Assembly (NCBI RefSeq): GCF_900168125.1
Contig: NZ_FUZF01000008.1
Location: 1 to 64,000, forward strand
Length of the DNA: 64,000 nucleotides
From: Sphingobacterium nematocida
Lineage (GTDB): Bacteria; Bacteroidota; Bacteroidia; Sphingobacteriales; Sphingobacteriaceae
Reading direction: 5' to 3'
Part shown: positions 8,282 to 11,772 of the stretch, piece by piece
How positions within the stretch are numbered: position 1 is the first letter of the stretch
How the letters are laid out: each line of letters opens with the position of its first letter
Made by a program: the position numbers and the translations under genes
Notes under the pieces: model-generated
Seen by the model: the letters and a program-made list of their open reading frames with translations, nothing else
Told to the model about the DNA's origin: nothing
Databases searched by the model: none

Positions 8282-9070
8282 TTAACCCGCTAATTGTTTA
8301 ACAAAATCTTGCATTGCTTCTCCTGGAGCCATAGTCTTCATGAAATTCTCACCGATCAAGAAGGACTGAAATCCTCGTTTTCGTAAATCCATGATGGTGC
8401 TTGGATCGGATATTCCACTTTCTGAGACCTTGATAAACTGATCAGGTATTTTGTTGACAAGGTCATAGGAATGATCCAATGAAACGGTAAAGTTCTTTAA
8501 ATTCCGGTTATTTACACCGATGGCATCGATACTATCGAATATATTGTGCTGGAGTTCTTCTTCATTATGCACCTCCAGTAGGACATTAAGACCCAATGAT
8601 TTTGCATAGTTGGATAAGGATTGAACTTCTTCCGGAGTAAGACATGCCGCAATAAGGAGAATGATGTCTGCTCCATATGCTTTTGCTTCTGCTATTTGAT
8701 AGCTATCAACGATAAATTCTTTGCGAAGCAGAGGGATCTGTAATACCTCTCTGGCATTGCTAAGATCGGCGAGGCTACCTTGAAAGAAGTCTCTGTCTGT
8801 CAGTACAGAGATGGCAGAAGCCCCAGCAATTTGGTACCCCTCAACAACTTCCTGTACGGTAGAACTATTATTAATGATCCCTTTGGAAGGTGATGCACGC
8901 TTGTATTCGGCAATGATACCTGTCCGTAATGGATTTTCTATGGATTCTTTTAAGGAATAGCAGGGCCTTGAAAATAAGGGGAACTGCTCTAGCTGTTGCA
9001 AAGATGTTTTGCTCTTAGCTTCAGCAACTTCTATCTTTTTTCTTTCGATGATTTTATCTAGTATGGTCAT
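8282..9070 (-). CDS. trpC: Indole-3-glycerol-phosphate synthase
   Basis: 262-residue TIM-barrel enzyme that converts CdRP to indole-3-glycerol phosphate in tryptophan synthesis. Conserved elements in order: EYKRASPSKG, SVLTDRDFFQGS, LLRKEFIVDSYQI (catalytic Lys), GVNNRNLKNF and SESGIS. It is monofunctional, with no fused TrpF domain. It is separated from trpG by 126 bp containing a 17-bp tandem repeat, rather than by trpD as in the common trpEGDCF order. Whether it is still transcribed from the trp promoter is unproven. Confidence 0.97.
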   Translation of the reverse strand: MTILDKIIERKKIEVAEAKSKTSLQQLEQFPLFSRPCYSLKESIENPLRTGIIAEYKRASPSKGIINNSSTVQEVVEGYQIAGASAISVLTDRDFFQGSLADLSNAREVLQIPLLRKEFIVDSYQIAEAKAYGADIILLIAACLTPEEVQSLSNYAKSLGLNVLLEVHNEEELQHNIFDSIDAIGVNNRNLKNFTVSLDHSYDLVNKIPDQFIKVSESGISDPSTIMDLRKRGFQSFLIGENFMKTMAPGEAMQDFVKQLAG

Positions 9071-9196: not shown

Positions 9197-9769
9197 TTAT
9201 TTAAGCCAATTCTCTATTAATTTCTTTCCATTATCGGTCAATATTGATTCCGGATGGAATTGCATTCCGCGGACATCGTATTGCTTATGGGCTAGTGCCA
9301 TGATGGTTCCATTTTCATCAACAGCAGTTATTTTTAGACAGTCCGGTAAGCTTTTCTCATCAACAGCCCAAGAGTGGTATCGTCCTATTTTCGATTCTTT
9401 GGGGAAGTCTTGAAAAAGCTTTTCGTCTTTGTCTGTGATAATGATGGATGAGGCTACACCGTGCAATGGTTTTGGCATATTAAAAAGTTTGCCGCCAAAT
9501 ACCTCAGCAATTGCCTGTTGGCCTAGACATATACCTAAGATACGCTTGTTTGGTGCGTAGGTTCTGATCACCTCCATCAGTAGTCCGGCTTCTTCAGGTA
9601 TACCTGGGCCCGGAGATAACAATATGTTTTCAAATTGATCGACATAGTCTAGGTCGAATTTGTCGTTACGTACGACTTCGTAGTCTACTCCCAATTCTTG
9701 TAACAAATGGACGAGGTTGTACGTGAAAGAATCATAGTTGTCTATGACTAAAATTTTATCTTTGTTCAT
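9197..9769 (-). CDS. trpG: Anthranilate synthase component II (glutamine amidotransferase)
   Basis: 190-residue class I glutamine amidotransferase. It shows LVIDNYDSFTYNLVHLLQ at the start, LSPGPGIPEEAG, the nucleophile motif GICLGQQAIAE, and the His-Glu dyad in MQFHPESILT. It supplies ammonia to TrpE to form anthranilate from chorismate. PabA activity in folate synthesis is possible, as in many bacteria with one copy. Its start overlaps the small upstream ORF by 14 bp, which suggests translational coupling within trpE-orf-trpG. Confidence 0.95.
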   Translation of the reverse strand: MNKDKILVIDNYDSFTYNLVHLLQELGVDYEVVRNDKFDLDYVDQFENILLSPGPGIPEEAGLLMEVIRTYAPNKRILGICLGQQAIAEVFGGKLFNMPKPLHGVASSIIITDKDEKLFQDFPKESKIGRYHSWAVDEKSLPDCLKITAVDENGTIMALAHKQYDVRGMQFHPESILTDNGKKLIENWLK

Positions 9770-9983
9770 CTTGTAACAATTGACTGGTTTCCACTAGTTG
9801 CTGTATTTCTTTATTCGCTGCTATCAAATCTACGAACTCTGTGTCGTTCGTATTCCCTATCTTTTGTTTTTTTGCCATATACTGTTTGCGTAAATGGAGT
9901 AATTCCAAAATTCTGGTGTCAATAGTTTCGATGCTTGCTGTGAGGTGCGTCGTGTTCTCACAGTATTCAAGAGGACGTATCAT
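9756..9983 (-). CDS. Small chorismate-mutase-like protein between trpE and trpG
   Basis: 75-residue, almost wholly helical protein. Its first half (SIETIDTRILELLHLRKQYMAK) matches the pattern of the first helix of AroQ chorismate mutase, with the ID..IL.LL..R spacing. The Arg of LLHLRKQY corresponds to a substrate-binding arginine. The lysine expected next (after KIG) is replaced by Asn-Thr-Asn, and the protein is shorter than the roughly 90-residue AroQ domain. It may therefore be inactive or structural. It overlaps trpE by 4 bp (ATGA type) and trpG by 14 bp, so it is translated as part of the operon and is unlikely to be a chance ORF. Function is unknown; a chorismate-handling or complex-stabilising role is inference. 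Confidence 0.7.
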   Translation of the reverse strand: MIRPLEYCENTTHLTASIETIDTRILELLHLRKQYMAKKQKIGNTNDTEFVDLIAANKEIQQLVETSQLLQDEQR

Positions 9984-11383
9984 AGGGTTTGTGCTATTTC
10001 AAGGGCTCTGCGCAGTGCAGCAATTTTGTTATTTACTTCTTGTAGTTCTTTTTCTGGGTCAGAATCCAATACGATACCTGCTCCAGCTTGGTAGTGTAGC
10101 ATGTTTTCTTTGCTCAGGAAGGAACGTATGATAATGGCATGGTTAAAATCTCCGTTGAAGCCCATAAAGCCTATAGCCCCAGCATAGAAAGAACGCTGCA
10201 TTCCTTCATAACGATCTATTAATGTGATGGCCATATGTTTCGGAGCTCCCGATAATGTACCAGCGGGATAGGTGTCGCCTACTACGTCAAACGGATTGGC
10301 AGTAGGTTTTAGTTTTCCTGATACTTTGGAGACTAAATGGATGATATGGGAATAGTACTGTGCTTCTTTGTATGATTTGACTTGAACGTCTGTACAGTGA
10401 CGGCTAAGGTCATTGCGAGCCAAGTCGACGAGCATGACGTGTTCTGCGGATTCCTTGGGATCATTTTTTAGTTCTTCCGCAATTTTTTCATCTTGTTCCA
10501 TGTCCCCAGTACGCTTGAAGGTTCCGGCGATGGGGTATATGGTTGCTTCTCCCTTTTTGATGGTGAGCTGCGCTTCCGGAGAAGAACCAAAAAGCTTGAA
10601 GTCTCCGTAATCAAAGTAGAATAGGTAAGGGGAAGGGTTGACTGAACGTAAGGCTCGGTATACATTGAATTCGTCACCGGCAAACGGCGTTGAAAACCCT
10701 CGTGATGGTACGATTTGGAATACGTCACCTCTACGGATATGAACTTTCATTTTTTCGACGAGAGCTTTGAAGGCGTCATCGGTCATATTTGACTTTTCTT
10801 CTCCTTTTGTACGGAATGAGTATTCCGGAAAATTTTTATTTTGAATCAAATACTCGATACGTTCCAGTTCGCTCTCTTCCTCGTCCAGTAGGTGCTCGAA
10901 GATATAAAGCTGGTTGCGAAAATGGTCGATAGCAATGACATATTTGTAAACATGGTATTGTAGAAAGGGTATTTTTCGGCTGCTTTCTAAGTTGGCTGTA
11001 AGGATTATATCCTCAAAATGAGCTACAGCATCAAAGGTGAAATAACCGAATAATCCATTGGAAATAACGTTTGTGTCGGCTAGGTATTCCTCCTGAAAAG
11101 ATTGTCTAAAAGCAGATACTTCGGTTCTTAGGTTAATGGAGGAAGCAGCTTTGACCACTTTCTCCTGGTTGGGATAACTAATCGTCAAGTTATTCTCATT
11201 CAATACTAATCCGGCAATCGGTTGACAGCAGATATAGCTGATATTGTTGTCTCGGCTGTGATACTCCGAACTTTCGAGTAGAATACTGTTCGGAAAGGTA
11301 TCCCGCATACGAAGATAGATACTTACTGGCGTCGTGGTGTCAGCGAGTATTTTTTTGTGGTTTGTTTTGAATGCGTATGTCAT
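9980..11383 (-). CDS. trpE: Anthranilate synthase component I
   Basis: 467-residue chorismate-utilising enzyme. The N-terminal part has the LLES motif (35-38) that binds tryptophan for feedback inhibition. The C-terminal catalytic domain shows VFQIVPSRGF, GSSPEAQLTI, YPIAGTFKRTGD, MLVDLARNDLSRHC, GTLSGAPKHMA, and QAGAGIVLDSDPEKE. Together these identify TrpE rather than PabB. With TrpG it makes anthranilate from chorismate and glutamine. It is the first structural gene after a leader with a Trp-rich ORF and attenuator. About 190 nt lie between attenuator and start, and they contain one R1 palindromic repeat. Confidence 0.97.
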   Translation of the reverse strand: MTYAFKTNHKKILADTTTPVSIYLRMRDTFPNSILLESSEYHSRDNNISYICCQPIAGLVLNENNLTISYPNQEKVVKAASSINLRTEVSAFRQSFQEEYLADTNVISNGLFGYFTFDAVAHFEDIILTANLESSRKIPFLQYHVYKYVIAIDHFRNQLYIFEHLLDEEESELERIEYLIQNKNFPEYSFRTKGEEKSNMTDDAFKALVEKMKVHIRRGDVFQIVPSRGFSTPFAGDEFNVYRALRSVNPSPYLFYFDYGDFKLFGSSPEAQLTIKKGEATIYPIAGTFKRTGDMEQDEKIAEELKNDPKESAEHVMLVDLARNDLSRHCTDVQVKSYKEAQYYSHIIHLVSKVSGKLKPTANPFDVVGDTYPAGTLSGAPKHMAITLIDRYEGMQRSFYAGAIGFMGFNGDFNHAIIIRSFLSKENMLHYQAGAGIVLDSDPEKELQEVNNKIAALRRALEIAQTL

Positions 11384-11409: not shown

Positions 11410-11463
11410 CATATGGAATACTCATGGGTGTTTGTGCTTCGCTAAACATGAGTATTTCATATC
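11410..11463. repeat. R1 palindromic intergenic repeat, copy A
   Basis: ATATGGAATACTCATG (11411-11426) pairs with CATGAGTATTTCATAT (11447-11462) with one mismatch. The loop contains a TGTTT/AAACA pair. It is a shorter relative of copies B (43270-43336) and C (49823-49892). It lies in the transcribed trp leader between the attenuator and trpE. Confidence 0.7.
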
Positions 11464-11569: not shown

Positions 11570-11602
11570 CCAAAAAAGCCCGACGAAATACGTCGGGCTT
11601 TT
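11570..11602 (-). terminator. trp attenuator (intrinsic terminator)
   Basis: On the minus strand, AAAAGCCCGACG (11602-11591) and CGTCGGGCTTTTTT (11585-11572) form a GC-rich stem with a 5-nt loop followed by a U-tract. It lies about 30 nt after the stop of the Trp-rich leader ORF and upstream of trpE. Its 5' arm can pair instead with GCGTCGGG inside the leader ORF, giving an antiterminator. Confidence 0.9.
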
Positions 11603-11632
11603 GATTTATGGTTTTGGTTGATTAAAAAATCC

Positions 11633-11716
11633 TTATTCTGAAAACCAATAGAGGTGCCTCCCGACGCTATTTGCTCCGGGCCACCACCAAAATTGATATG
11701 TACTTTGTGTCATCAT
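11633..11716 (-). CDS. trpL: trp operon leader peptide with three consecutive Trp codons
   Basis: 27-codon ORF, too short for usual gene calling. It begins with ATG ATG, reads MMTQSTYQFWWWPGAN at its start and ends HLYWFSE: three consecutive Trp codons plus a fourth near the end, in a genome where TGG is rare. It is followed by an intrinsic terminator that precedes trpE. The RNA has the classical choice of pairings. Region 1:2 is GGTG and CCCG with CGGG and CACC. Region 2:3 is CGTCGGG (within 11660-11667) with CCCGACG. Region 3:4 is the terminator. A ribosome stalled at the Trp codons would cover region 1 and free region 2 for the antiterminator. The promoter places the transcript start within a few nucleotides of the first ATG, so the leader is likely leaderless. 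Confidence 0.85.
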   Translation of the reverse strand: MMTQSTYQFWWWPGANSVGRHLYWFSE

Positions 11717-11723
11717 TACACCA

Positions 11724-11752
11724 CAAATTTAGAATAATTTTTAAATAATCAA
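11724..11752 (-). promoter_or_regulatory. trp operon promoter
   Basis: On the minus strand, TTG (11752-11750) and TAAATTTG (11731-11724) are 18 nt apart and match the Bacteroidota consensus. Transcription would start near 11717, at or 1-3 nt before the leader peptide ATG. Confidence 0.7.
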
Positions 11753-11772
11753 ACTCTTTTTGTTAAAAAAAT

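Follow-up and report, generated by a model that had tools for sequence, protein, structure and literature searches.

A putative leaderless tryptophan attenuator ahead of the trpEGC operon of Sphingobacterium nematocida and its relatives

Upstream of the tryptophan biosynthesis genes of Sphingobacterium nematocida lies a short ORF in which three Trp codons follow one another, and two questions arise from it: whether the expression of the operon is regulated by transcription attenuation, with a ribosome as the sensor of charged tRNA-Trp, and how this ribosome starts translation on an ORF whose ATG appears to stand almost at the 5′ end of its transcript. We analysed a stretch of 64,000 nt (positions 1 to 64,000 of contig NZ_FUZF01000008.1), hereafter the window, together with the corresponding regions of relatives. 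The trpEGC leader is very probably a ribosome-mediated transcription attenuator sensing charged tRNA-Trp, in which the sensor ORF would be translated leaderless.

The trpEGC leader and its proposed switch

The trp genes form a minus-strand cluster in which trpC is followed by a dusB gene, and TrpE has its best named relative in Sphingobacterium sp. xlx-96 (94% identity). An earlier note on this DNA had described, in order before trpE, a promoter, a 27-codon ORF with four Trp codons (three in a row) and an intrinsic terminator; all of them were located on the minus strand, within the span 11570-11752 that it had claimed. The features of the locus are the following:

8282..9070, minus strand: trpC (NF001377, above cut-off)
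9197..9769, minus strand: trpG (TIGR00566, above cut-off; a family common to trpG and pabA)
9980..11383, minus strand: trpE, anthranilate synthase component I (best family TIGR00564, 422 bits, under the curated cut-off of 517.7)
11574..11602, minus strand: intrinsic terminator stem-loop with T-run (12 pairs, 7 GC)
11579-11585 and 11591-11597, minus strand: inside the terminator, region 4 CGTCGGG (11585-11579) and region 3 CCCGACG (11597-11591)
11609..11623, minus strand: AATCAACCAAAACCA block, between leader stop and terminator
11644..11648, minus strand: region 2b, TTGGT, possible second antiterminator helix
11645..11647, minus strand: fourth Trp codon (24), in the C-terminal tail
11660..11667, minus strand: region 2, GCGTCGGG, partner of region 1 or region 3
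11673..11680, minus strand: region 1, CCCGGAGC, adjoining the Trp codons on their 3′ side
11681..11689, minus strand: three consecutive Trp sensor codons (10-12)
11633..11716, minus strand: leader-peptide ORF, MMTQSTYQFWWWPGANSVGRHLYWFSE (ATG 11716, stop TAA 11635-11633)
11718..11719, minus strand: predicted transcription start, 4-5 nt after the -7 box (5′UTR of 2-3 nt, from spacing)
11724..11731, minus strand: -7 box TAAATTTG (TAnnTTTG, Bacteroidota consensus)
11750..11753, minus strand: -33-type promoter element TTTG

The leader ORF has 27 sense codons, of which codons 10, 11, 12 and 24 encode Trp, and contains a second ATG at 11713. The tail around the fourth Trp (..YWFSE or ..FWFSE) is found in 7 of 90 genus genomes, the one under study among them. 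Leader and terminator together fold better than all of 200 dinucleotide shuffles (z -4.0), while the leader deprived of the terminator has a less striking fold (z -1.9, with 9 of the 200 shuffles equally good). The self-hairpin including the Trp codons, also described in the earlier note, is present in the predicted fold, and the sequences of the antiterminator that it proposed, CGTCGGG and CCCGACG, turned out to be perfect complements.

In the mechanism that we propose, RNA polymerase would start 2-3 nt upstream of the leader AUG, and translation of the sensor ORF would for this reason be leaderless. Under a shortage of Trp-tRNA, the ribosome would stall on the three Trp codons and mask region 1, leaving region 2 (GCGTCGGG) free to pair with region 3 (CCCGACG), which is the 5′ arm of the terminator, and allowing readthrough into trpEGC. 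With Trp-tRNA in good supply, the ribosome would proceed, and region 2 would be either masked at the stop codon or refolded with region 1 behind the ribosome; region 3 would then pair with region 4 and transcription would end. Masking at the stop codon is possible, with region 2 starting at most 22 nt before the stop, in 77 of 126 distinct leaders; in the window species, with about 25 nt from region 2 to the stop codon, the refolding route would apply.

Some observations concern the surroundings of the leader. Between terminator and trpE there is an inverted repeat of 16 nt with a 20-nt loop (11411-11462), and the gap between the two measures 191 nt, compared to 62 and 97 nt in the relatives G022 and G034; in G077, inspection by eye revealed another extra hairpin at the place of this repeat. 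An IS110-family RNA-guided transposase is encoded at 56-1003 on the minus strand (NF033542, 216.7 bits, cut-off 140). A search for plasmid copies gave no match, with records near the window possibly left out of that search.

Conservation and compensatory changes among relatives

The regions upstream of trpE were collected from 90 of 93 genomes of the genus, leaving out G049 (trpE at a contig end), G076 (9% contamination) and G083 (no full trpE), and from a further 60 genomes that represent 17 other genera of the family. These 60 were hand-picked from the matches listed rather than drawn at random; they include no member of genera g5, g8 and g9, and members of g6, g11, g23 and g24 gave weak or no matches. 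An ORF with a cluster of Trp codons (WW, WWW or W-x-W) precedes trpE in 149 of the 150 genomes, belonging to 18 genera: in all 90 of the genus and in 59 of the 60 others, the exception being G118 of genus g3. The two trpD regions sampled from genus g3, G118 and G134, likewise have no such ORF, and Trp attenuation may have been lost in this genus. A terminator was detected by script in 145 of the 149 leaders, and in the remaining four (G003, G068, G229 and G116), which were excluded from the pairing, covariation and masking analyses, a hairpin with a T-run is seen by eye. In a broader sample of the phylum, all 33 regions read from the same class carry a Trp-cluster ORF (of 39 such genomes searched, two were already in the family set and four had no full-length trpE match), and among the 15 regions from other classes two are without it, the rest ranging from convincing WWW leaders to ORFs possibly due to chance. 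Since the sequences are related, these counts are not independent.

Covariation was evaluated on an alignment built without structure (130 distinct rows), using as controls the same stems with one partner slid by 1-3 columns. The antiterminator stem 2:3 has standard pairs in 86.9% of cells (18.6-43.7% when slid) and 44 cells changed on both sides (7-16 when slid), with G-C replaced by A-T in 23 rows and T-A by C-G in 19, for example; the terminator stem 3:4 has 98.5% (27.4-48.6%) and 47 cells (0-28), respectively. Counted by pairs, changes on both sides affect 3 of 7 in each of the two stems, which is no excess over the 2-4 of the slid 2:3 stem, and two pairs of 2:3 are often mismatched, one as A/G in 21 rows and the other as C/A in 20. 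The 1:2 stem is paired in 85.5% of cells in the genus (27.8-52.2% slid) and in 42.2% in the other genera (28.9-40.7% slid), and its changes on both sides are not in excess. The comparison of trpE regions that the earlier note had suggested bears out the conserved Trp codons and the covariation of 2:3 and 3:4; the third stem, 1:2, is supported in the genus and not clearly outside it.

Pairing energies point in the same direction. Region 2 pairs with the terminator arm of its own leader with a mean of -12.55 kcal/mol over 145 leaders, stronger than in each of 300 permutations of the arms (mean -11.06, sd 0.16, best -11.61); leader by leader, it exceeds the mean foreign arm in just 91 of 145, and it is worse in six genera. 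The possible second helix, between region 2b and the ACCAA at 11618-11614 inside the AATCAACCAAAACCA block, has an ambiguous register because of the repeat ACCAAAACC: the shifts +1 and -3 give 69.5% and 72.7% of pairing, and a register one off gives 47.1%.

In the masking folds, the stall-state model masks a ribosome on the Trp codons and the stop-state model hides all upstream sequence, which simplifies the situation of long peptides. In the stall state, 137 of 145 leaders (88/88 in the genus, 49/57 in the others) are predicted to have the 5′ arm of the terminator within the antiterminator, and in the stop state this arm is sequestered in only 4 (4/88 and 0/57, respectively); in the window leader, 7 arm bases are sequestered in the stall state, 0 in the stop state and 0 in the unmasked RNA. 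Without masking, the antiterminator is the preferred structure in 72 of 145 leaders (49/88 and 23/57), so that an untranslated leader would, according to these folds, not always terminate. As read from the sequences, antiterminator and terminator are mutually exclusive structures with compensatory changes, and the description of the locus as a classical ribosome-mediated attenuator agrees with its anatomy and with these alternative stems.

A terminator that acts constitutively, for example as the end of a small RNA, with the Trp-rich ORF devoid of any regulatory role, would be an extremely unlikely explanation: a strong terminator alone would indeed yield a short RNA, and in Sinorhizobium meliloti roles in trans are described for the trp leader RNA arising from termination, as well as for its peptide (excerpt of PMC7298713), but here the Trp codons are conserved along with region 2 and the terminator arm, and the stems 2:3 and 3:4 change in concert. 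Hardly more probable is the control of termination, instead of or besides the ribosome, by a protein or metabolite binding the AATCAACCAAAACCA block. The identity of this 15-mer in 80 of 90 genus leaders exceeds what the pairing with TTGGT alone would need; however, the block is absent from all 59 leaders outside the genus, which retain the Trp ORF and the terminator, it is missing from 10 leaders of the genus itself, and it can pair with the sequence after region 2. Ribosome-mediated attenuation thus remains the reading that we prefer.

The start of the sensor ORF

Promoters of Bacteroidota have the consensus TTTG/TAnnTTTG (excerpts of PMC6847099, PMC7366714 and PMC9723704). In Flavobacterium johnsoniae the -7 element lies at -12 to -5, and 4-5 nt between element and start are considered to indicate a probable promoter (PMC6847099, in the part available); the same -12 to -5 position is given for F. 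psychrophilum (excerpt of PMC9723704). If the spacing of F. johnsoniae is applied to the window, transcription would begin at 11719 or 11718, that is 3 or 2 nt before the ATG, in line with the earlier claim that the ATG is almost at the predicted transcript start. A generic sigma-70 scan did not report the TTTG/TAAATTTG boxes; it found 4 sites, where 2.5 are expected, one of them a 9-of-12 site at 11766-11737 on the same strand.

The distance from box to start codon was measured with a single rule (full box preferred, otherwise the nearest TTTG) in the leaders before trpE, hisG, pheA and trpD. Before trpE it is 4-11 nt in 148 of 149 leaders, whichever way the box is chosen, giving a predicted 5′UTR of 0-7 nt, and the lone exception is a member of the genus, G068, with 18 nt. 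For comparison, 62 of 20000 random window positions have a full box at this distance (4-11 nt) on their upstream side, as do 2 of 40 ORFs of at least 120 aa. In 136 of 147 leaders the -7 box is itself preceded by a TTG at 14-30 nt, and in 101 this distance is exactly 21 nt. In the same genus, the distance is 13-21 nt in the 15 his leaders (before hisG) and 17-22 nt in the 15 phe leaders (before pheA); when any TTTG is counted, 1 his and 4 phe leaders have one 4 nt before the ATG, and these also have a full box at 18-19 nt.

The attenuator might be real and its sensor ORF nevertheless preceded by an ordinary 5′UTR, with transcription starting further upstream or with a -7 match that is not an active promoter. 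This is unlikely, though it is the reading towards which the minority status of leaderless transcripts in the mapped Bacteroidota and the 18 nt of G068 would lean: in the excerpts consulted, leaderless transcripts are 5.5% in F. psychrophilum (PMC9723704), 5′UTRs under 10 nt are about 3.7% in Bacteroides thetaiotaomicron (PMC7366714) and those of 10 nt or less are about 13% in F. johnsoniae (PMC6847099). Against it stand the short spacing, which is kept in all leaders except one while its length and intervening bases vary, the distance of the TTG, fixed at 21 nt in 101 of 147, and the his and phe leaders of the genus, in which the same rule does not produce short spacing. Leaderless translation of the trp sensor is still favoured.

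The same minority figures agree with the earlier note in that a leaderless design is unusual, and do not support its suggestion that such a design fits bacteria making little use of Shine-Dalgarno sites; in fact, the authors of the F. johnsoniae study state that the missing sites are not explicable by leaderless translation (excerpt of PMC6847099). As the his and phe leaders are spaced at 13-22 nt, a near-zero predicted 5′UTR is proper to the trp leader and does not represent a general response to the missing Shine-Dalgarno sites, and the candidate explanation of a leaderless start as the default for leader peptides of the genus was ruled out by the same spacing. The near-zero predicted 5′UTR thus appears as a conserved trait that, of the kinds of leader peptide compared within the genus, is special to trp.

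Related systems and the other leader peptides of the genome

A leader-peptide Trp attenuator is, as such, a known kind of regulator. In Escherichia coli, trpL has an untranslated leader with a Shine-Dalgarno site and contains two Trp codons. The window leader resembles the E. coli attenuator in its Trp codons, in the 1:2, 2:3 and 3:4 stems and in the intrinsic terminator before trpE, and differs from it in having three consecutive Trp codons and a predicted 5′UTR of 2-3 nt.

Within the phylum, leader-peptide attenuators before amino-acid operons of F. psychrophilum are already in print (excerpt of PMC9723704), and the flavobacterial counterpart of the leader is RF01692, Bacteroid-trp, a Bacteroidete tryptophan peptide leader RNA that appears in Table 1 of PMC2864571 (seen in part). 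At E ≤ 0.01, RF01692 gave matches in 20 of the 198 genomes scanned from the phylum; 15 of these exceed the cut-off, and family f4 accounts for 18 of the 20. It shares with the window leader a WWW leader peptide followed by a terminator before trp genes in Bacteroidota; in the RF01692 loci read, however, region 2 (..CGTCGTGA) looks by eye complementary to the terminator loop and 3′ arm, whereas in the window leader it pairs with the 5′ arm. The covariance model has no match at the window leader, including scans at E up to 1 and up to 10, which rules out membership, nor at the 9 other trpE loci of the family that were scanned at gathering level. At the trpE loci scanned, RF01692 and Flavo-1 are the only gathering-level matches of Rfam 15, all at f4 loci, and in the window between 9000 and 14000 Rfam 15 gave sub-threshold matches only, with no known T-box or riboswitch family. 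RF01692 members in genus g29 have 16-20 nt from box to ATG (7/7), and 5 of the 15 f4 trpE regions read have 4-7 nt, which suggests that the short start may have changed more than once.

Leaderless attenuators have been described outside the phylum. In S. meliloti the leader RNA rnTrpL begins at the ATG of trpL and is thus a leaderless Trp sensor (excerpt of PMC7298713); it differs, comparing by description, in belonging to an Alphaproteobacterium, in its peptide of 14 residues and in its operon, trpE(G). In Actinobacteria, attenuation ORFs whose leaderless start has been mapped include leuL, metL and thrL of Streptomyces lividans and the ilvB leader of Corynebacterium diphtheriae, in groups where 17-33% of transcripts or genes are reported to be leaderless; they respond to other amino acids and some lack a typical terminator (excerpts of PMC8079986 and PMC5784534). 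Among the matches listed from the open-licence literature, itself seen in part, there is no leaderless Trp attenuator in Bacteroidota and no Trp attenuator in Sphingobacterium.

In the same genome, trpD lies outside the trpEGC operon, at G000:C17, followed by ORFs that we take by eye to be trpF and trpB. A candidate second Trp attenuator precedes it (L292 / L166, G000:C17:185778-186962, minus strand), with a WWW leader peptide, MNNFVINNAWWWHNR, 17 nt behind a TTTG and followed by a terminator-like hairpin. The single RF01692 hit of the genome falls directly before trpD (34.8 bits, E 0.0657, cut-off 49), a score that says little alone because 7 of 14 control genomes also match at the lax limit. 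In a survey of the family (81 genomes searched, 66 with a match, 51 regions read), 46 of the 51 regions have a Trp-cluster leader; its nearest TTTG is 5-17 nt away, 10-13 nt in 35 of 46, and with the full box preferred 3 of 46 move to 40-50 nt, the full box lying further off. These leaders (L293-L342) often show CATATTTG instead of TAnnTTTG as the presumed -7 box. Given the Trp-cluster leaders and the hairpin, each of the two trp operons seems to be equipped with a Trp attenuator of its own, the one before trpD apparently also short-leadered and less extreme than that of trpEGC.

The genome also encodes a Phe/Tyr-rich leader peptide, MHTATTYNYFYFFYFSDKSRG, before pheA and a His-rich one, MITLLSHHIHMHHRQFGDM, before hisG (L269, L221), each found in all 15 genus genomes examined. 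Before ilvD, an Ile/Leu/Val-rich ORF behind a -7 box was not found at 15 Sphingobacterium loci, one of the genomes (G014) having an ORF with such a cluster and no box; on inspection by eye the sequence preceding ilvD seems to be coding, and a leader may therefore lie further upstream in that operon.

We tentatively propose, with rather less than even confidence, that leaderless initiation is a working part of the Trp sensor. In that case, the ribosome would load on the 5′-terminal AUG once this has emerged from RNA polymerase, and the Trp decision would be tied to the first ribosome on each transcript and dependent on leaderless (possibly 70S) initiation. The family would have retained this mode for trpEGC, with the his and phe leaders of the genus remaining leadered and a second WWW attenuator lying before the separate trpD operon, and a single cell would possess two Trp sensors that differ in their mode of starting. 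If both attenuators are true, a leaderless sensor and a short-UTR sensor of one amino acid would be comparable in one cell. For the family as a whole, the trpEGC leader would represent a well-delimited RNA element, unmatched by Rfam 15 in the scans made, that controls Trp synthesis, and, in a phylum largely without Shine-Dalgarno sites, would serve as a natural reporter of leaderless translation.
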